Under the pieces are notes generated by a model. It was not told the DNA's origin, did not search any database, and worked only from the letters and a program-made list of their open reading frames with translations. Shown piece by piece: positions 13,441 to 57,364 of a DNA stretch of 64,000 bases. Within the stretch, counting starts at the first letter, position 1, and each line of letters starts with the position of its first letter. Made by a program: the position numbers and the translations under genes. Source of the stretch: Thermococcus barophilus MP (lineage in GTDB: Archaea; Methanobacteriota_B; Thermococci; Thermococcales; Thermococcaceae); contig NC_014804.1 in assembly GCF_000151105.2 (NCBI RefSeq), forward strand, positions 868,001 through 932,000. The letters are read 5' to 3'.

Positions 13441-13460
13441 ATTTTTGCATACGCACAAAA
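13441..13460 (+). promoter_or_regulatory. Palindromic operator A (MinD-ferredoxin ATPase promoter)
   Basis: ATTTTTGCATACGCACAAAA. It differs at three positions from the perfect palindrome TTTTGTGCATATGCACAAAA found at 20413-20432. It abuts a TATA-like TTTTTAAA (13461-13468), whose spacing predicts a start near 13490 just before GGAGGTG. A bound regulator would therefore touch the TFB/BRE region. Confidence 0.6.
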
Positions 13461-13501
13461 TTTTTAAACTTTTAGGTTCCCCTAATTCAGGAGGTGTTGG
13501 G

Positions 13502-14362
13502 ATGCAGATAGCAGTTAGCGGAGGAAAAGGGGGGACTGGAAAGTCAACAATAGCAATTAACTTGGCTATTGCTCTGAGGAATTACTTTGACCTGACTTTG
13601 GCGGATTTAGATGTGGAAGCCCCTAACGACCATATACTCTTAGGGATAGAACTTCAAAATGAAGAACCTGTTGAGCTTTTTATGCCACGTTTTGACTATT
13701 CCAAATGTATTAAGTGCAGAAGATGTGCTGAGGTTTGTGAAGAACATGCAATAATCACTATGAGAGATGGAACACCCTTTTTAATGCCTACACTATGTTC
13801 CGGTTGTGGTGCCTGTCGGATAGTCTGCCCCGTTGAAGGAGCAATTTTGGAAGGTAAAAAGCTGATGGGCCACACATATCTAACCGAAACTCCATATGGG
13901 TTCCAGTTGGTTACAGGCAAACTGTTGGAGGGTGAAGAGAGAGCGATGCCTATCGTCGTTGCAGCAAAGGAAAGGGCAAAGGCACTTAATAAAGAACTTT
14001 TGATAGTTGATACTGCGGCAGGAACGAGCAACACTGTTTCTAAAGCTTTAGAGGATTCCCAGCTTATTATCGCTGTCACCGAACCTACGCCGTTAGGTCT
14101 TCATGACTTAGAGCTAATCCTCAAGCTCGCAGATATTATGGGGATTGAGGCATGGGTTGTTATCAATAGAAGCGATTTAGGAAAGAAAGAAGACGTGAAA
14201 GAACTTGCAAGAAGATATAATGCCAGAATTACTGCTGAGATTCCCTATAGTGAAAACATAATCAAGAGCTACGTTGAAGGAAGACCAATTGTTTTGAGCG
14301 ATTGTGGGGAAGCGGAAATTTTCAGAAAGCTTGCTGAAGAGGTTGTCAGCTATTTGAGGTGA
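13502..14362 (+). CDS. MinD/Mrp-superfamily ATPase with inserted two-[4Fe-4S] ferredoxin domain (first copy)
   Basis: 286 aa. Deviant Walker A GGKGGTGKST at residues 7-16, then an inserted bacterial-type ferredoxin domain (residues about 60-115) with two complete CxxCxxCxxxC/P motifs (CIKCRRCAEVCEEHA and CSGCGACRIVCP), then the rest of the MinD fold. This is the COG1149 type, related to Mrp/NBP35 scaffold ATPases. Related ATPases are encoded with NifX-like proteins in the ORP complex of Desulfovibrio. Start ATG 13502 after GGAGGTG. Followed 5 nt later by its paralogue. Confidence 0.9.
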   Translation: MQIAVSGGKGGTGKSTIAINLAIALRNYFDLTLADLDVEAPNDHILLGIELQNEEPVELFMPRFDYSKCIKCRRCAEVCEEHAIITMRDGTPFLMPTLCSGCGACRIVCPVEGAILEGKKLMGHTYLTETPYGFQLVTGKLLEGEERAMPIVVAAKERAKALNKELLIVDTAAGTSNTVSKALEDSQLIIAVTEPTPLGLHDLELILKLADIMGIEAWVVINRSDLGKKEDVKELARRYNARITAEIPYSENIIKSYVEGRPIVLSDCGEAEIFRKLAEEVVSYLR

Positions 14363-14367
14363 TTAAA

Positions 14368-15255
14368 ATGCAGATTGTCATTGCAAGCGGTAAAGGTGGA
14401 GTTGGGAAATCAACAGTTGCGGCTTCACTCATATATCTGCTCAAGGACAGGTACAAGCTTATAGCAGTTGACGCCGATGCTGATGCTCCAAACCTCCACC
14501 TGCTCTTTGGAGTCAAAAAGTGGGAAGAAGAGAAAGAGCTAACAGGAGCCAAAGTTGCAAGGATAGATCAAGATACGTGCATTAGATGTGGTATTTGCTA
14601 TGAGAGATGTCCCTATGAAAGCATAAAGCTTGTGGATGGGAAATATGTTGTGAATGAGCTCACATGTGAAGGCTGTGGAGTCTGTAAACTTGTGTGCCCA
14701 GTCAGGGGGACAATAACTCTTGAAGAAGTTCGCTCTGGAGTGATTAGAAAGACAACAACAGGGTATGGATTTCCATTGATTTCAGCTCAATTAGATGTGG
14801 GGAGACCAAACTCTGGAAAGCTCGTTACAGAGGAAAAAGAGTGGGCAAAGAAGATAATGTATGAGCAAGAACTGGATCACATGATAGTCGATTCAGCGGC
14901 AGGAATTGGATGTCAGGTTATTGCCAGCGTTGGCGGAGCAGATGTTGCCATTCTTGTTGCAGAGCCTACTCCAGCATCACTGAGTGATGTTAAAAGGGTT
15001 TACAAGGTTGTCCAGCACTTCAGGGAACCAGCTTATTTGATAATAAATAAAGCAGACATAAACCCTGGCTTTGAAGGACTTTATGAGTTTGCAGAGCAGG
15101 AGGGGATACCAATTTTGGGTGAAATACCCTACGATAGGGCAATTCCATACAGTATGACCATGCTTAAGCCATTTGTTGAAGCATTTCCGGAGTCAAAAGC
15201 CAGCAAAGCACTTAAGGAAATTGCAAAAGCTGTGGAGGATGAGATTTTGGAGTAG
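14368..15255 (+). CDS. MinD/Mrp-superfamily ATPase with inserted two-[4Fe-4S] ferredoxin domain (second copy)
   Basis: 295 aa, paralogous to the preceding gene. Walker A GKGGVGKST near residue 8, ADADAPNLHLLFG, then ferredoxin motifs CIRCGICYERCP and CEGCGVCKLVCP around residues 68-110, and DSAAGIGCQV (Walker B region) near 175. Two different ATPases side by side suggest a heterodimer, by analogy with other paired scaffold ATPases. ATG 14368 has AGGTGAT just upstream, overlapping the previous stop; cotranscription is near certain. Confidence 0.9.
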   Translation: MQIVIASGKGGVGKSTVAASLIYLLKDRYKLIAVDADADAPNLHLLFGVKKWEEEKELTGAKVARIDQDTCIRCGICYERCPYESIKLVDGKYVVNELTCEGCGVCKLVCPVRGTITLEEVRSGVIRKTTTGYGFPLISAQLDVGRPNSGKLVTEEKEWAKKIMYEQELDHMIVDSAAGIGCQVIASVGGADVAILVAEPTPASLSDVKRVYKVVQHFREPAYLIINKADINPGFEGLYEFAEQEGIPILGEIPYDRAIPYSMTMLKPFVEAFPESKASKALKEIAKAVEDEILE

Positions 15256-15339
15256 TTTTAAGTTCTATTTTTATCTTAAGTCTCAGTTGTTAAACACTAC
15301 CGATAAACCTAAAGCCAAATACCAGTTAATATTTTTGAA

Positions 15340-16437
15340 ATGGCAAAGTGCAAGTTGTGTGGTTATGAGTCCAAAGAGATAAGCAAATCAATTGGAGTAT
15401 GTGTTAACTGCCTTAGAAAAGATGATCAAGCTTTGAAAACAGCAATGGAAAGTCACTTCAAGTGGCGTGAACTTATAGGGCTTCCTCCAGAGCCACCAAA
15501 GGATGGAGAGCTCCAATGCAAAATATGTGTTAATGAATGCAATATCCCAAGAGGTGGCTCAGGTTACTGCGGAATAATATGGAACAAAGGTGGAATGTTG
15601 ACCACAATAACCGGGACATTTGACAAAGCTTACCTCCACTGGTATCTCGACCCTCATCCAACAAACTGCGTTGCTGAGCCCATCTGTCCTGAGAGAGAGC
15701 ATTACGGCTTTTACAACTTAGCTGTATTTTATGCTGGATGCAACTTGGACTGCCTCTTCTGCCAGAATGTTCAGCACAAATACATGATAAAAGAGGGTAG
15801 AATTGACCTAAGGGAAGGCATTGTGTTAAGTACAGATGAGCTTGCAAATATCGCTATGCAGAGACGGGTTACTTGTGTCTGCTACTTCGGAGGTGATCCA
15901 ACACCGCACAGCATTTATGCTCTGAAAGTCTCAAGAAAAATTCTAAAGCAGGCTGAAGAAAGTAAAGAAATGAAAAGAATCTGCTGGGAGACAAATGGCT
16001 TGGAAAATCCGAAGATTATGACGAAAATGGCAGAGCTCAGCCTTAAAAGCGGAGGGATTGTTAAGATCGACTGGAAGGCATACACATCAAGTGTTTATCA
16101 GGCTCTGACAGGGATAAATGGGGAAAAAGCCATCAAAAGGATAAAAGAGAACATCAAGCTTGTCTTAAAGATGAGTGAAGGAAGAGAGCTACCTCTTCTG
16201 GTTGTCAGCACTCTTGTGGTTCCCCACTACATTGATGAGCATGAGGTGTTTAATATTGCAAGGTATATAGCTGGAATAAATCCAGAAACCCCTTATGTGC
16301 TGTTGGCTTTTACCCCCCAACATTTAATGTATGATGTTCCAACAACAAGCAGGAGGCAAATGGAAAAGGTTTACAAAGCAGCTCAGGAGGCTGGGCTGAA
16401 AAACATTTACATCGGGAATCCATGGCTACTAAGATAA
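15340..16437 (+). CDS. Radical SAM protein, PflA/AmmeMemoRadiSam-like
   Basis: 365 aa. N-terminal zinc-ribbon-like CKLCGYES...CVNC, a second Cys cluster (CKICVNECNIPRGGSGYCG, residues about 65-83), then the radical SAM signature GCNLDCLFCQN (CxxxCxxC) near residue 134 that binds the [4Fe-4S]-SAM cluster. The domain order fits COG1180 glycyl-radical-activating or AmmeMemoRadiSam proteins. No glycyl-radical enzyme or Memo protein is present in the window, so its substrate is open. It sits 85 nt after the ATPase pair, same strand, and may belong to the same system. Confidence 0.85.
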   Translation: MAKCKLCGYESKEISKSIGVCVNCLRKDDQALKTAMESHFKWRELIGLPPEPPKDGELQCKICVNECNIPRGGSGYCGIIWNKGGMLTTITGTFDKAYLHWYLDPHPTNCVAEPICPEREHYGFYNLAVFYAGCNLDCLFCQNVQHKYMIKEGRIDLREGIVLSTDELANIAMQRRVTCVCYFGGDPTPHSIYALKVSRKILKQAEESKEMKRICWETNGLENPKIMTKMAELSLKSGGIVKIDWKAYTSSVYQALTGINGEKAIKRIKENIKLVLKMSEGRELPLLVVSTLVVPHYIDEHEVFNIARYIAGINPETPYVLLAFTPQHLMYDVPTTSRRQMEKVYKAAQEAGLKNIYIGNPWLLR

Positions 16438-16438
16438 T

Positions 16439-16792
16439 TTATTCCTCGTTATCCGAGCTTTGGGTTTTTGGCACCTCATTTCCCTGTGCCAAAATTATCA
16501 GCTCCCTTCCCTCAACGAGCATTTGTGCAACTTTCTTCCTTGCTGAGCTTAAAGCTCTCCAGACCGTTCCTCTCGAAACACCCATTCTCCTTCCTGCCTC
16601 TTCCTGGGTTAGTCCTTCATAATCCACCAATCTCAATGCCTCAAACTCCTCGTATGTCATGAAAATCGGCGGCTGAGGTGGTCCAATAGGTGGGCGCGCT
16701 GGATAGAAGTGCTTAATCTCTGGGATGAGGCCAATAAAGCGCATCTTCCTTCTTCGCCCTCTGCCTCTACCTCTTCCTGTTCCCCAAGGCAT
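16439..16792 (-). CDS. DUF134-family helix-turn-helix DNA-binding protein
   Basis: 117 aa. A basic start (WGTGRGRGRGRRRK), a Pro-rich patch PARPPIGPPQPP, MTYEEFEALRLVDYEGLTQ and then a clear sigma-region-4-like HTH (QEEAGRRMGVSRGTVWRALS). This is the DUF134 family, often neighbouring NifX-like and MinD-ferredoxin genes in anaerobes. It is the obvious candidate to bind the three palindromes in this region. Start ATG 16792 with GGTG 6 nt before it. Convergent with the radical SAM gene, leaving only one base between the stops. Confidence 0.85.
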   Translation of the reverse strand: MPWGTGRGRGRGRRRKMRFIGLIPEIKHFYPARPPIGPPQPPIFMTYEEFEALRLVDYEGLTQEEAGRRMGVSRGTVWRALSSARKKVAQMLVEGRELIILAQGNEVPKTQSSDNEE

Positions 16793-16910
16793 TTCAACAC
16801 CAAGCAAGAATTTTTCATTCAGACTTTATAGGGATTTCCCTTCAATTCAACTTGAAACTGTCAAAGGGTTTTTTAGGAAAGTTCTGCAAAACTTAATTTC
16901 AGGTGGGAAA

Positions 16911-17261
16911 ATGAAAAAGATGGTGACAATTATTGTTTTGCTTATTGTTGGTGGAGCAATAGCCACTTGGAGCCATATCAAAGAAGAGAAGAGAGTAGTG
17001 GTATTACAAGCAACGTTTAAAATGGGTGGCATAACTTATGAAGGGTATAAAATACAAGGAGATACCTTGATTTTTGAATTCAAGCGAACTGGGGATGTTT
17101 TTACTCAGGCAATAGTGAAGAAAGAGGTTAAGGTAGGAATTGAAGATTTCCCTGCCAGAGTTGTTGTGGAGGTCAACACCAACGGAAATGTTAAGAGATA
17201 TGAGGCAGAATTAATTTTTGATGGGGATGATGAGAGAGTATATAAAGCCTCAGAGCTTTGA
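16911..17261 (+). CDS. Small secreted or membrane-anchored protein, unknown function
   Basis: 116 aa. N-terminal MKKMVTIIVLLIVGGAIATW is a signal anchor with no clear cleavage site; the rest is a beta-rich extracytoplasmic domain with alternating hydrophobic/charged residues (VVLQATFKMGGITYEGYKI). No family recognised. AGGTGGG lies 4 nt before ATG 16911; the longer open frame upstream runs over the DUF134 promoter. Its 3' end overlaps the small zinc-finger gene by 35 nt. Confidence 0.6.
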   Translation: MKKMVTIIVLLIVGGAIATWSHIKEEKRVVVLQATFKMGGITYEGYKIQGDTLIFEFKRTGDVFTQAIVKKEVKVGIEDFPARVVVEVNTNGNVKRYEAELIFDGDDERVYKASEL

Positions 17262-17382
17262 GTTTGTGTGTCCGTTCTGCGGGTACAGAGCAAGGAGCCT
17301 CGAAGAGCTTAAGCAGCATATCTTTGAAAAGCATACCTTTAACAGAGAGGACATCAGAGGTTCACGGTTCATCAGGATCTAA
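17227..17382 (+). CDS. 51-aa C2H2 zinc-finger miniprotein
   Basis: Short ORF beginning MMREYIKPQSFEF, overlapping the 3' end of the previous gene in another frame. It contains one classical finger: CPFC, twelve residues, then HIFEKH (C-x2-C-x12-H-x4-H). Single-finger C2H2 proteins of about 50-60 aa are common in archaea and usually bind nucleic acid. Tandem ATGs at 17227 and 17230; the ribosome binding site is weak, so coupling to the upstream gene is likely. Ends with RFIRI. Confidence 0.75.
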   Translation: MMREYIKPQSFEFVCPFCGYRARSLEELKQHIFEKHTFNREDIRGSRFIRI

Positions 17383-17444
17383 AAAGGTGAGGTGCTTAAG
17401 AAAGGTTAATAACTTGTCATAAAGAACTTTCTGTGGTGGGTGAG

Positions 17445-17900
17445 ATGGAATTTAAAGTTGTAGAGAGAAAGATAGGATGGCACAAAGACTTTGACAGTTC
17501 GCATTTTTTGGCTCTGCCTTACGACAGCAAATGCTTGAGAATTCATGGGCATACCTACAACGTCGATGTTGAGATTTGGGGAGACTTAGATGAGAGGGGT
17601 ATGATTTTTGATTTCAATCACTTAAGCAATCTCATTAAGGAAGTCGATCACCGCATTTTAACAAGTATCGAGTGGATCAAAGAGGAGGGGGATCACATAA
17701 TCATAGTTCAGAATGACAAAGAGCTCAAACTTCCAAAAAAAGAAGTAGTTATAGTCGATGCTCCCAATGTTACTGCCGAGCTCATAGCGGAGTGGTTTGC
17801 AAAGAGGATAGCAGAAAAAGCCGGAGAAAATGTAAAGCGAATAAAAGTTAGGGTCTGGGAAGACCCGAGGAGCTATGCTGAGATAGTCTTAGAACGCTAA
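17445..17900 (+). CDS. 6-pyruvoyl-tetrahydropterin synthase/QueD family protein
   Basis: 151 aa. The zinc and catalytic signature CLRIHGHTYNVDVEIWG (C-x3-HGH) is present, with a third His in SSHFL, then FDFNHLSNLIKEVDHRIL and a C-terminal NVTAELIAEWFA helix. The family makes 6-carboxy-tetrahydropterin for archaeosine/queuosine or, in archaea, other pterins; the CxxxHGH form favours QueD-type chemistry. About 32 extra residues in the middle (SIEWIKEEGDHIIIVQNDKE) are common in archaeal members. ATG 17445 after GGTGGG; own promoter plausible. Confidence 0.85.
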   Translation: MEFKVVERKIGWHKDFDSSHFLALPYDSKCLRIHGHTYNVDVEIWGDLDERGMIFDFNHLSNLIKEVDHRILTSIEWIKEEGDHIIIVQNDKELKLPKKEVVIVDAPNVTAELIAEWFAKRIAEKAGENVKRIKVRVWEDPRSYAEIVLER

Positions 17901-17956
17901 CGTTGTTCCAAAAAGATTAAATTCTGTTCACCATATCTTTTTTGAGGTGAAGGAAG

Positions 17957-18379
17957 ATGAGATTCTCAAGAGGAAGAAACTTTATGTTTAGAATTCCAGA
18001 AGGAGAAGAGTTCCTAACATTCATCAACAAATTCGCAGAAAAAAACAACGTTCTTATTGGAACAGTGGCAGCAATTGGGACACTAAGAAACCCAAAAATC
18101 GGATATTTTGAAGAGGAAAAGGGCAAATATAAGGTAATTGAGTTAAGCGGTACTTATGAGCTCCTTTCTGCGCTGGGCAACATAAGTCTGAAAGATGGGA
18201 AGCCTTTTGCCCATATCCATGTGGCTTTAGGAGACAAAGAGGGGAGGGTATTGGGGGGTCATTTAATTGAAGGAGAGGTATTTGTCGCTGAGGTCATCAT
18301 TCACGAACTGCTTGGAGAACCCCTGGAAAGAAAGGTTCAGGAGAATGGATTAGCACTTTGGGATGCAGAAAAAATTTAA
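17957..18379 (+). CDS. PPC/DUF296-domain protein
   Basis: 140 aa covering one PPC (DUF296) domain: the IPEGEEFLTFINKFAEKNNV start, the GTVAAIGTL segment, and PFAHIHVALGDKEGRVLGGHL, whose histidines can form a metal site. In bacteria and archaea the single-domain form is a trimeric protein of unsettled role; in plants it is fused to AT-hook DNA-binding tails. GGTGAAGGA lies just before ATG 17957. It follows QueD by 56 nt on the same strand. Confidence 0.8.
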   Translation: MRFSRGRNFMFRIPEGEEFLTFINKFAEKNNVLIGTVAAIGTLRNPKIGYFEEEKGKYKVIELSGTYELLSALGNISLKDGKPFAHIHVALGDKEGRVLGGHLIEGEVFVAEVIIHELLGEPLERKVQENGLALWDAEKI

Positions 18380-18394
18380 AGAGAGTGGAAAATC

Positions 18395-18973
18395 TCATAT
18401 TTCCTTCTCTTTCCTTAAGATTTTTGCAAGTACCATGTAATGCCATGCAATTATTCCAAAGATGCCTATGAATTCTGAAACTGCCACTCCTCTAAAGACC
18501 TTCATTGCCCAAAGCCCAAGAATCCAGCTAAGAACGAATATTATGGCAGTTATAATCCCAAGTTGTTTCTCTCTTCCAAGATATAACCCAATTCCAGCCA
18601 CCAGCATCCCAAAACTTGCCGTGATGAAGAAACCCCAGCTGACATAATAATGAGGGGAGGTTCCTTCAGGGAAAATCCCAATTCCCGCCAGAAACATCAA
18701 GCCAAGGATAAAAATCCAGATTCCAAGCTTCATTGTAGGGTGTTTTGCCTCCTTGAAAAGCCCCAAGGCATAATAGATACCCAAAATCGCCGCAACTACA
18801 AGTGAAACGTTCATCACCCAGTTATAGGGCAGGTTTACTTTTCCGAGGTCGCTTATAGCATTGTCTGTGAGGCTCCACCAAGAGCGATGTATGAATACTG
18901 CCATGAATATTCCACCTAACCCTATCAACGGTGCACAGAAACCAGCCACTTGTTGACTTCTTTTCATTGGCAT
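18395..18973 (-). CDS. DUF998-family integral membrane protein
   Basis: 192 aa with six hydrophobic helices, starting with QQVAGFCAPLIGLGGIFMAV and the family-typical SWWSLTDNAISDLG loop (the conserved Ser-x-LG of DUF998), then ISH-like GIFPEGTSPHYYVSWGFF. Function unknown. A TATA-like TTTATAGG near 19000 places the transcript start only a few bases before ATG 18973, so it is probably leaderless. Convergent with the PPC gene. Confidence 0.75.
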   Translation of the reverse strand: MPMKRSQQVAGFCAPLIGLGGIFMAVFIHRSWWSLTDNAISDLGKVNLPYNWVMNVSLVVAAILGIYYALGLFKEAKHPTMKLGIWIFILGLMFLAGIGIFPEGTSPHYYVSWGFFITASFGMLVAGIGLYLGREKQLGIITAIIFVLSWILGLWAMKVFRGVAVSEFIGIFGIIAWHYMVLAKILRKEKEI

Positions 18974-19083
18974 CACTGGTTTAATACTCTCCTTCTACCT
19001 ATAAACCCTAACGCCTATTAGAACTCCCGACAAAGGTTTATAAATCCATCATACCGAATGCCAAAGAAAGAGAAAAGCTTGTT

Positions 19084-19518
19084 TCACCAGTCGTCCACAC
19101 CACGTCCCATCCCTTTTCCTCGACCTCTCCCCATGCCTCTTCTTGGACCAATTCCACTGCCTTCAGCTCCAAGAATTGGCTGTGTCAATTCTCCTCTGAG
19201 ATAAGCCTGAACAGCTTGTTCGACTGTCATAGTTGGTGGTGCTGAGACAAACTTTATGCCCGCAGCTTGAAGAACTTGTGAGGAATTTGGACCAAACTGC
19301 CCAGCTATAACAACATCTGCACCTTCATTTATACAAAACTGGGCTGCCTGAATACCAGCAGCTCTTGGAGCACTGTAAGCGGGATTTTGAACCGCCTGAA
19401 CGTTTATTATGTTCCCTTCCTCGTTAACATCAACAATCGTGAATGTTGGAGCTCTCCCAAAGGCTTGGCTTACAAAGTCATTCAGTCCGCCTTTTATGGT
19501 TGCTACAACAATTCTCAT
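19084..19518 (-). CDS. NifX/NifB-type (dinitrogenase FeMo-cofactor-like) protein with Gly/Arg-rich tail
   Basis: 144 aa. Residues 1-110 are the COG1433 fold (MRIVVATIKGGLNDFVSQAFGRAPTF shortened here by family), with AGQFGPNSSQVLQAAGIK near 80. Family members bind Mo/Fe or Mo/Cu clusters in the NifX/ORP group. The tail from about 120 is low-complexity RRGMGRGRGKGMGRG. GGAGGTGAG precedes ATG 19518; operator B lies about 45-60 nt upstream. Third and last gene of a minus-strand cluster with the 72-aa membrane protein and the second NifX-like protein. Confidence 0.85.
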   Translation of the reverse strand: MRIVVATIKGGLNDFVSQAFGRAPTFTIVDVNEEGNIINVQAVQNPAYSAPRAAGIQAAQFCINEGADVVIAGQFGPNSSQVLQAAGIKFVSAPPTMTVEQAVQAYLRGELTQPILGAEGSGIGPRRGMGRGRGKGMGRGVDDW

Positions 19519-19559
19519 ATTCTCACCTCCGCTCCAAATTAGGACAGCCTAACTTAAAA

Positions 19560-19579
19560 AGTTTTGCATATGCAAAAAC
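19560..19579 (-). promoter_or_regulatory. Palindromic operator B (NifX-like gene promoter)
   Basis: The core TTTTGCATATGCAAAA (19562-19577) is a perfect palindrome. On the minus strand it is followed at once by CTTTTTAAG, a TATA-like box in the same position as at operator A, predicting a start near 19530 just before GGAGGTGAG. Confidence 0.6.
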
Positions 19580-19582
19580 AGA

Positions 19583-19801
19583 TCAAAACCACATTCTCGG
19601 TCTTAAAAGATCCCTCAGCAGAAGCAGAACTACCAGGGCTATCACATACGGCGCTGCAACAAGGAACAGCTTAATTAAGACGTACAGTATTGCAACTATG
19701 AACAAAAGGTCTACGATTCCAAAGAATCCGCTAAATCTTCTAAAGCCCCAGAAGCTTCTTCTACGTCCCCTCTCATAGCCTCCGCTTATCCATCTCGGCA
19801 T
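19583..19801 (-). CDS. Small membrane protein of the NifX cluster
   Basis: 72 aa. A basic, aromatic start (PRWISGGYERGRRRSFWGFR) leads into two hydrophobic helices, FFGIVDLLFIVAILYVLI and VAAPYVIALVVLLLLRD, ending RPRMWF. No family recognised. TGAGGTGATAAA precedes the ATG. Being lodged between two NifX-like genes on the same strand suggests that it tethers or scaffolds that complex at the membrane; this is inference. Confidence 0.65.
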   Translation of the reverse strand: MPRWISGGYERGRRRSFWGFRRFSGFFGIVDLLFIVAILYVLIKLFLVAAPYVIALVVLLLLRDLLRPRMWF

Positions 19802-19831
19802 TTTATCACCTCAAAATGGAAAAATAGGAAA

Positions 19832-20389
19832 TCACCACCAGCCATAAAGCCACCTAAGTGCTCTCCTGCTGGGCATTCCTGTCCACGGGCAGTATCCTAA
19901 GCGAGCACCCCAGCCTCTTCCTCTCCACCCTCCTCTGCTCCAACCTCTTCCTCTACCCCAACCGTAGCCAAAGCCATAAGCTGGAATTGGGTAAGCTGGT
20001 CCGTAGGTTAGTGCTGAGGGAACGGGGTATGGAGGCTGAACCGTCTGAAGAGCGCCCTTAATCACGCTCTCAACGGCTTCTCTAATTGGTATTCCTGGTG
20101 GGAACGTGTAAACCTTGATTCCCGCTGCTTGGATTGCCCCTAAAGCGTTTGGACCAAGCTGGGGAACAATAACTGCATCAACTCCCTCATTTATGAGCAT
20201 TTGCACAGCCATTGGACCTGCTCCACTGGGAGCACTAACTGCTGGATTCTGAATCGTTTTTACGTTCTTGATTTCGTCATTTTCAACCTCAATTATGGTG
20301 AAAACTGGAGCTCTTGCAAAAACTGGTGCAATTGTGTCCTCTAATCCCCCATTAGCTGAGCTTGGAACTGCAATTTTCATACTCACCAT
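19832..20389 (-). CDS. NifX/NifB-type protein with long Gly/Tyr/Arg-rich tail
   Basis: 185 aa. N-terminal COG1433 domain (residues 1-115, MKIAVPSSANGGLEDTIAPV, PQLGPNALGAIQAAGIKVY), paralogous to the 19084 protein. The C-terminal 65 residues are low complexity: PYPVPSALTYGPAYP, then GYGWGRGRGWSRGGWRGRGWG and a YCPWTGMPSRRALRWLYGWW end. Two start codons fit (ATG 20389 and 20380) behind GGAGGTGGTGAG. Operator C lies between its TATA-like box and the ribosome binding site. Such a tail may bind RNA, DNA or membranes; not tested. Confidence 0.85.
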   Translation of the reverse strand: MVSMKIAVPSSANGGLEDTIAPVFARAPVFTIIEVENDEIKNVKTIQNPAVSAPSGAGPMAVQMLINEGVDAVIVPQLGPNALGAIQAAGIKVYTFPPGIPIREAVESVIKGALQTVQPPYPVPSALTYGPAYPIPAYGFGYGWGRGRGWSRGGWRGRGWGARLGYCPWTGMPSRRALRWLYGWW

Positions 20390-20412
20390 GCTCACCACCT
20401 CCCAATTTTCTA

Positions 20413-20432
20413 TTTTGTGCATATGCACAAAA
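20413..20432. promoter_or_regulatory. Perfect 20-bp palindromic operator C
   Basis: TTTTGTGCATATGCACAAAA, a perfect 10+10 palindrome. On the minus strand it lies directly downstream of TTTTAAG (20434-20440), between the TATA box and the expected start of transcription near 20410, a position that favours repression. The hef promoter on the plus strand (GTTTATAAAC, around 20465) is about 35 bp away. Confidence 0.65.
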
Positions 20433-20503
20433 TCTTAAAAGCTTTTCGGTTGACCTAACATACTGGTTTATAAACACAGGAAGAGAAGATAATTGAGATA
20501 GCC

Positions 20504-23066: not shown

Positions 23067-23250
23067 ATTTCCGCCAGCGCTTCGTGGGAAGCGAAGCTTC
23101 CCGACGTGTTGGGACAAAGTCCCAACATGCGAAGCAAAGGGCTGAAAATGTGCCCCGGGGGAGCGGAGGGAACTCACAGCTCGCCTCCGTGCTCATTCCC
23201 CACGGTTGCCCGGGGCATTATAAGTTCCTCACATTCAAACTTAAGCTTTT
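23067..23250 (+). ncRNA. Candidate GC-rich structured non-coding RNA
   Basis: A sharply GC-rich island in an AT-rich genome with strong nested stems. Domain 1: outer stem GCTTCG/CGAAGC (23079-23084 with 23130-23135) enclosing two hairpins, GGGAAGC-GAA-GCTTCCC (23086-23102) and a 9-bp stem with AAA loop (23107-23127). Domain 2: outer 9-bp stem TGCCCCGGG/CCCGGGGCA (23151-23159 with 23209-23217) enclosing CGGAGG/CCTCCG. TATA box upstream and a T6 run at 23247-23252 downstream. Not RNase P, SRP or tRNA by inspection. It could be one of the Hgc/SscA families described in Pyrococcus; I cannot assign it. Confidence 0.7.
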
Positions 23251-33642: not shown

Positions 33643-33700
33643 AGCGGATGATGAGTAAATTTAAGCGGAGCGATGAAGAACCCTATGAGCGCTGACGCTC
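33643..33700 (+). ncRNA. C/D box sRNA predicted to guide 2'-O-methylation of tRNA-Met C34
   Basis: Box C ATGATGA at 33648-33654, D' CGGA (33666-33669), C' GCGATGA (33670-33676), box D CTGA at 33692-33695, with a short AGCG/CGCT terminal stem. The D guide CCCTATGAGC (33681-33690) pairs perfectly over 10 bp with GCTCATAGGG of the tRNA-Met gene at 45916-45925. The nucleotide five upstream of box D (33687) pairs with 45919, the C34 of the CAT anticodon. Cm34 of elongator tRNA-Met is a known archaeal C/D target. Confidence 0.85.
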
Positions 33701-57307: not shown

Positions 57308-57364
57308 GGGCGATGATGACAATTTCGCTAGCTGAAGGTGATGACTACCCTCGCAACTGAGCTT
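57308..57364 (+). ncRNA. C/D box sRNA with D' guide matching 23S rRNA
   Basis: Textbook double guide: box C ATGATGA (57313-57319), D' CTGA (57332-57335), C' GTGATGA (57338-57344), box D CTGA (57357-57360), guides of 12 nt each and a short GGGC/GCTT terminal stem. The D' guide CAATTTCGCTAG would pair over 10 bp with UAGCGAAAUU, a universally conserved 23S rRNA segment near E. coli 1931-1940, selecting the nucleotide equal to C1934. The D guide CTACCCTCGCAA has no target that I recognise. Confidence 0.88.

Follow-up and report, generated by a model that had tools for sequence, protein, structure and literature searches.

A shared palindromic operator and a proposed DUF134-controlled regulon for iron-sulfide storage in Thermococcales

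We analysed a 64 kb stretch of the Thermococcus barophilus MP genome (2,064,237 bases, two contigs), hereafter the window, and focused on a locus at 13.4-20.4 kb. The locus encodes two paralogous MinD ATPases with inserted ferredoxin domains (MinDFd_A and MinDFd_B), a radical SAM protein, a DUF134 protein, two NifX-fold proteins and several small open reading frames (ORFs). A previous sequence-only reading had named these families, and all of them were found where it placed them; it did not list the PTPS/QueD-like, DUF296/PCC and DUF998 genes (Table 1). We identified the larger NifX-fold protein as an IssA/SipA-type protein; in Pyrococcus furiosus, IssA/SipA (PF2025) stores iron and sulfide as thioferrate (PMC5524996). 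The coherent unit at this locus is likely an IssA-type iron-sulfide storage and handling regulon with ATPases resembling those of the orange protein (ORP) complex, and differs from the unit proposed earlier, an archaeal ORP-like system that included the radical SAM protein.

A palindrome common to issA, nifX and MinD-ferredoxin promoters

Palindromes resembling TTTTGTGCATATGCACAAAA lie 5' of MinDFd_A, NifX_J and issA, and, outside the window, at NifX_3 and at a CDF cation-efflux gene. The site before the CDF gene (L010, G000:C1:1730668-1730685) is a perfect operator. Allowing one mismatch, the operator matched the T. barophilus genome 8 times, compared with once for a reversed control; in a search across 94 Thermococcales genomes, a 14-base version turned up in 82 and the reversed control in none. 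By these counts, the shared operators noted in the sequence-only reading are above chance. Literature searches with 12-base strings did not find the operator as a published motif, and their results were off-topic by title.

To count targets, we fetched 60 regions, 20 of them around DUF134 genes and 40 picked for holding a site, and scored sites at up to two mismatches from the core. Of the 73 sites, 67 preceded issA (22), nifX_3 (15), CDF (12), MinDFd_A (10), nifX_4 (4) or nifX_J (4), with target labels drawn from the window genome's own genes, so that unlabelled target types would count as none. Among the other six, three read as issA or NifX genes cut at a contig or region end, and three as other genes: an SBF-family transporter (L152), an Mrp-like gene (L159) and a small smK-like ORF (L134). 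The transporter, from one Thermococcus, is possibly ACR3-like and preceded by the site (L152:2490), and the Mrp-like Fe-S carrier gene, from another, has the site beside it (L159:2499).

At issA the palindrome is located between the TATA-like element and the start codon, and at the MinD pair and NifX_3 just 5' of the TATA-like element. Sites that flank TATA on either side would be well placed for a repressor that keeps factors or polymerase from the promoter.

In published RNA-seq of Palaeococcus pacificus, PAP_06520, PAP_06515, PAP_06425 and PAP_06430 were induced by sulfur 75-, 20-, 13- and 11-fold and ranked 1st, 2nd, 3rd and 5th in sulfur induction (PMC6981617). By gene order and count at five per tag, MinDFd_A, MinDFd_B, NifX_J and IssA fall at these four tags; the 75-fold induction belongs to the issA orthologue, which tops the sulfur-induced genes. 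Sulfur induction of issA has also been published for P. furiosus. In T. onnurineus, the SipA and SipB proteins were seen only in sulfur-grown cells (PMC4463584); SipB may be the counterpart of smK or of NifX_J. We conclude that the core genes very probably form one sulfur-responsive regulon. The co-occurrence and co-expression that the sequence-only reading had asked for were found for the core genes, the latter as co-induction in P. pacificus. Its view of the two ATPases and the NifX-fold proteins as a co-regulated set like the ORP complex, one that shares operators and needs no nitrogenase, is supported. Its statement that the function is undescribed in Thermococcales holds in part: IssA has been characterised and sulfur induction published, so the set is not wholly undescribed.

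Table 1. Genes and promoter features of the locus, in window coordinates
Feature	Position	Strand	Remarks
Operator TTTGCATACGCACA	13444-13457		DUF134-type; upstream of MinDFd_A, just 5' of TATA-like TTTTTAAA
Second palindrome TTAGGTTCCCCTAA	13472-13485		Candidate DtxR-type iron box; 3' of the MinDFd_A TATA-like element
MinDFd_A	13502-14362	+	MinD/ParA P-loop fold; insert with two [4Fe-4S]
MinDFd_B	14368-15255	+	Paralogue of A; ferredoxin insert with two [4Fe-4S]; start placed after ribosome-binding site GAGGTGA; ORF opens at GTG 14359
Radical SAM	15340-16437	+	AmmeMemoRadiSam-like, below that model's cut-off
DUF134	16439-16807	-	PF02001; likely start Met 16792
Small ORF (small E)	16917-17261	+	
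C2H2-like small ORF	17218-17382	+	Weak, under Pfam cut-offs
PTPS/QueD-like	17433-17900		
DUF296/PCC	17957-18379		
DUF998	18395-18976		
NifX_J	19084-19518	-	Second NifX-fold protein; PF02579; Gly/Arg-rich C-terminus
Second palindrome TTAGGCTGTCCTAA (coding strand)	19539-19552		Candidate iron box; in NifX_J leader
Operator variant TTTGCATATGCAAA	19563-19576		DUF134-type; upstream of NifX_J
smK	19583-19801	-	Small membrane protein, Arg-rich N-terminus; between issA and nifX_J
IssA/SipA-type protein	19832-20389	-	NifX domain (PF02579) and 69-residue tail
Operator, perfect TGTGCATATGCACA	20416-20429		DUF134-type; between issA TATA-like element and start codon
Second palindrome variant TTAGGTCAACCGAA (issA strand)	20445-20458		Overlaps CCGAAAA, resembling a B recognition element (BRE), 5' of the TATA-like element

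DUF134 and a second palindrome as candidate controls

The DUF134 protein matched PF02001 at 87.2 bits (cut-off 27) and NF003257 at 200.5 bits (cut-off 115). It has a helix-turn-helix (HTH) of the sigma-region-4/DeoR-like type, a Gly/Arg-rich cationic N-terminus and no cysteine. A structure model gave the HTH core at high confidence; in a fold search, sigma region 4 and the DeoR DNA-binding domain were the top-ranked neighbours, with no match at E <= 0.001. We assign the HTH on the combined strength of HTH/sigma-region-4 matches in Pfam and NCBIfam, the structure model and these neighbours.

Of 74 good Thermococcales genomes, 72 contain PF02001. DUF134 also stands ahead of NifX and MinDFd genes in several sister lineages within the class; Peptoclostridium acidaminophilum has, as annotated, a DUF134-NifX-ATPase-ATPase-MrpORP run (L223), and on bacterial plasmids DUF134 is followed by NifX. 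On gammaproteobacterial plasmids (L224, L239-L242) the DUF134-NifX pairs lie beside TauE/SafE, SLAC1, PaaI, Dps or ArsR genes, neighbourhoods that look like sulfide and iron handling. No DUF134 relative was found on viral contigs.

Palindromes were also found at DUF134 genes themselves. In several sister lineages a 14-bp palindrome lies at or near the DUF134 start; four of these carry TGAATATATATTCA, and others have a palindrome of the TGCAT...ATGCA type. Across ten sister genomes TGAATATATATTCA occurred six times, four times at DUF134 promoters and twice upstream of Mrp Fe-S carrier genes. Both of these Mrp-gene sites (L245, L246) adjoin genes that by sequence belong to the DtxR family, one of them confirmed by Pfam. 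In bacteria, GCATATGC was the commonest exact palindromic 8-mer within 120 bases upstream of 21 DUF134 genes; it occurred upstream of 4 genes exactly and of 9 within one mismatch, compared with random means of 0.1 and 1.0 (the observed counts were reached 0 and 1 times in 2000 random draws), although this core was chosen after the sequences had been viewed. Recognition helices of the SR-x-T type pair with GCATATGC-like sites, and SQPT and HQST types with other palindromes. Since DUF134 is the first gene of NifX/MinD operons both in sister archaea and in a Clostridium relative, and since similar palindromes precede many DUF134 genes in other phyla and palindrome type tracks the recognition helix, DUF134 is probably the regulator of these promoters. 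Our literature search found no relevant title on archaeal DUF134.

A second palindrome, TTAGG-N4-CC(T/G)AA, often stands beside the operator. It was first spotted by eye in the promoter listing and counted afterwards: it accompanies the operator at issA in 18/22 cases, at MinDFd_A in 9/10, at nifX_4 in 4/4 and at nifX_J in 2/4, and at nifX_3 and CDF in 0/15 and 0/12. The window holds exact TTAGG-N4-CCTAA twice and a variant once, all three at operator-bearing promoters, and the exact form occurred 25 times in 377 kb of related loci, compared with 0-1 for five rearranged palindromes. We take TTAGG-N4-CCTAA to resemble the first half of the IdeR consensus. In P. pacificus the palindrome precedes feoAB, where TTAGGTTACCCTAA adjoins feoA, and it also precedes two further genes, one for a GTP cyclohydrolase and one for a radical SAM protein, the latter in other genomes too. 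The cyclohydrolase in question is of the GCHY-1 type (L249:10448). Exact copies also lie near DUF134, with no clear downstream gene start, in several Thermococcus genomes (L116:10356, L117:9142, L119:9477 and L120:8954). Like DtxR/IdeR iron boxes, the palindrome stands at known iron genes, feoAB. We lean towards reading it as a DtxR-type iron box. Iron and sulfide-linked inputs together would fit the sulfide response of sipA, which requires sufficient iron according to a report cited in PMC5524996.

Several observations weigh against this combined picture. All four exact GCATATGC matches in bacteria come from gammaproteobacterial plasmids that are related and hence not independent, 12 of the 21 bacterial DUF134 genes have no site within one mismatch, and TGTTAACA gave 11 one-mismatch matches in the same 21-gene test, compared with 9 for GCATATGC. 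The helix-operator pairing comes from a small, phylogenetically structured set with sites partly picked by eye. The exact 14-base site is absent from some genomes that have DUF134. The pairing of the P. pacificus genes relies on length and gene order instead of accessions, and the sulfur-induction data were published for species other than T. barophilus. The CDF protein has HxxxD/HxxxD motifs in transmembrane helices 2 and 5, which we take to be associated with zinc rather than iron. As for the iron box, the second half of the issA variant, CCGAA, also looks like a BRE, and the window genome yielded no DtxR gene.

A further such point is that, within Thermococcales, the DUF134 gene lacks an operator of its own. 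There are also other HTH proteins, so the regulon might be real with a different transcription factor bound to the palindrome and DUF134 doing something else. We consider this unlikely: palindromes of the same 14-bp architecture stand at DUF134's own promoter in sister archaea, several bacterial DUF134 genes are preceded by GCATATGC-like sites, the type of operator follows that of the recognition helix, and the HTH gene that adjoins nifX_3 was labelled in just one other fetched region (L162). The SurR motif GTT-N3-AAC was not seen at issA in a by-eye look, with no formal test.

Iron sulfide as the probable cargo

The protein that we read as IssA matched PF02579 at 78 bits (cut-off 26.3). Its cationic tail contains 9 Pro, 15 Gly, 8 Trp and one Cys, the only cysteine of the protein, and has an isoelectric point (pI) of 10.9; the P. 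furiosus IssA tail has 70 residues, one Cys and a pI of 10.7 (PMC5524996). We assign the protein to the IssA/SipA type because both the NifX-fold domain and this long cationic Gly/Trp/Arg tail with a single Cys match the P. furiosus protein, and we infer that it would likewise bind thioferrate. Iron sulfide is therefore a likelier cargo than Mo-Cu, and the Mo-Cu cofactor suggested by the sequence-only reading is not implied, given these features and the thioferrate store described for IssA (PMC5524996). The P. furiosus paper differs in giving no operon, operator, DUF134 or MinD-ferredoxin pair (PF2026 and SipB are absent from it), whereas in the Thermococcales studied here the pair is tied to issA through common operators.

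NifX_J is a sister of IssA with a shorter Gly/Arg-rich end. Two further PF02579 genes lie outside the window in the same genome; one of them, nifX_3, is divergent from a CooC-like ATPase gene and adjoins a HypE-like gene (L002, G000:C1:1176920-1180189). The operator between the CooC-like gene and nifX_3, near the HypE-like gene, may point to a connection with hydrogenase maturation.

MinDFd_A, like DUF134, occurs in 72 of 74 good Thermococcales genomes, with one copy in each. In a tree of archaeal and Peptoclostridium sequences, A and B formed separate clades with 100/99 support each, some branches being long, and the two Peptoclostridium ATPases fell one in each clade. The pair thus predates the divergence of these lineages. 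Given that the iron in thioferrate is ferric and that the ATPases have ferredoxin domains, we tentatively suggest that they may act on IssA-bound iron sulfide, a role that we hold at somewhat less than even odds.

Could this instead be an archaeal ORP complex, in which a Mo-Cu or similar heterometal cluster sits on the NifX-like proteins and is matured or positioned by the MinD-ferredoxin pair, as in Desulfovibrio? The Desulfovibrio vulgaris ORP complex consists of Orp3, Orp4, Orp5, Orp8 and MrpORP (PMC6345978). The same families recur here: paired MinD ATPases with two [4Fe-4S] motifs each and an Orp8-like NifX-fold protein (PF02579), two paralogous ferredoxin-type ATPases and a NifX-fold partner being under common control in both systems. 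The NifX fold matched D. gigas ORP (2wfb, E 4.8e-10), the A/B pair is ancient, and the Peptoclostridium run combines DUF134, NifX and both ATPase clades with MrpORP, although that cluster is bacterial and known from annotation alone. However, the closest PDB match was MTH1175 (E 5.1e-17), not ORP. MrpORP, Orp5 and the sigma-54 control of the Desulfovibrio system were not seen in the window, where the promoters are archaeal and carry the palindrome, and NifX_J and IssA matched only the NifX part of the two-domain MrpORP model NF041136, at 46 and 33 bits against a cut-off of 450. Furthermore, the IssA-type tail and the published thioferrate chemistry favour iron and sulfide, as does the candidate iron box at these promoters. 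An IssA-type storage protein that likely holds iron sulfide, not Mo-Cu, also sets the window genes apart from D. vulgaris, and we regard a heterometal ORP complex as improbable.

Neighbouring genes and a proposed mechanism

The sequence-only reading had counted the radical SAM protein among the members of the set. We rejected it: it has no operator of its own, and its closest homologues outside Thermococcales (in Thermotogota, Ignisphaera and Geothermarchaeota) have no MinD, NifX or DUF134 gene nearby, DUF134 being absent altogether from the three tested genomes that bear them. It scored 72 bits against the TIGR04337 (AmmeMemoRadiSam) cut-off of 220. The small E and C2H2-like ORFs, also proposed as members, have no operator and are neighbours in some close relatives only. 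No operator was found at the PTPS, DUF296 or DUF998 genes either; the PTPS-like protein scored 69.6 bits against the QueD model TIGR03367 (cut-off 89.25) and matched the PTPS family itself. These genes are neighbours, not core members. That the whole locus is a chance neighbourhood of unrelated genes fits such passengers, which lack the operator and do not occur in the core clusters that sister lineages have; for the core it is disfavoured and highly improbable, because those genes share operators even when dispersed on the chromosome and were co-induced in the P. pacificus RNA-seq.

The smK gene was often linked to issA; a Pfam search with smK gave no match. Ends rich in Arg or in Gly and Arg are common to DUF134, NifX_J, smK and IssA (16439-16807, 19084-19801 and 19832-20389). 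Elsewhere in the window, Rfam matched the small RNAs Pab160 (23149-23216), sR41 (33644-33697) and sR39 (57309-57362).

For the IssA-centred regulon we propose the following mechanism. A DUF134 dimer would bind the 14-bp palindrome through its GCATATGC core and, as promoter geometry and the published sulfur induction suggest, most likely represses the promoters and releases them when sulfide or iron-sulfide rises. TTAGG-N4-CC(T/G)AA may recruit a DtxR-type iron regulator to the promoters of issA and of the MinD pair, and often also to that of nifX_J. IssA would store iron and sulfide as thioferrate, and its sisters NifX_J and NifX_3 may scaffold or carry related iron-sulfur species. MinDFd_A and MinDFd_B could draw on ATP and on electrons from ferredoxin for loading or reducing Fe-S units or for moving them between storage and targets, and the cation-efflux transporter would belong to the same regulon as issA. 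Because the Gly/Arg-rich N-terminus of Thermococcales DUF134 resembles the cationic tail of IssA, we also considered that DUF134 might sense iron sulfide directly, the anionic thioferrate stored by IssA pulling it off its operators, with the iron box as a second input. Such tail-based sensing is speculation and we think it doubtful; Arg-rich N-termini also occur in some sister-lineage DUF134 proteins outside NifX clusters.

Few genes known in Thermococcales respond to sulfur with as strong an induction as issA (sipA), and we found no regulator described for it in the literature searched. The parts of the regulon are known; the regulator assignment, the operator and the dual control appear to be new. 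If the proposal is true, DUF134, which is classed as a family of unknown function in both archaea and bacteria, would gain a role, an operator and a target set, the MinD-ferredoxin ATPases would become linked to IssA, and the iron-dependent sulfide induction would be simply explained.

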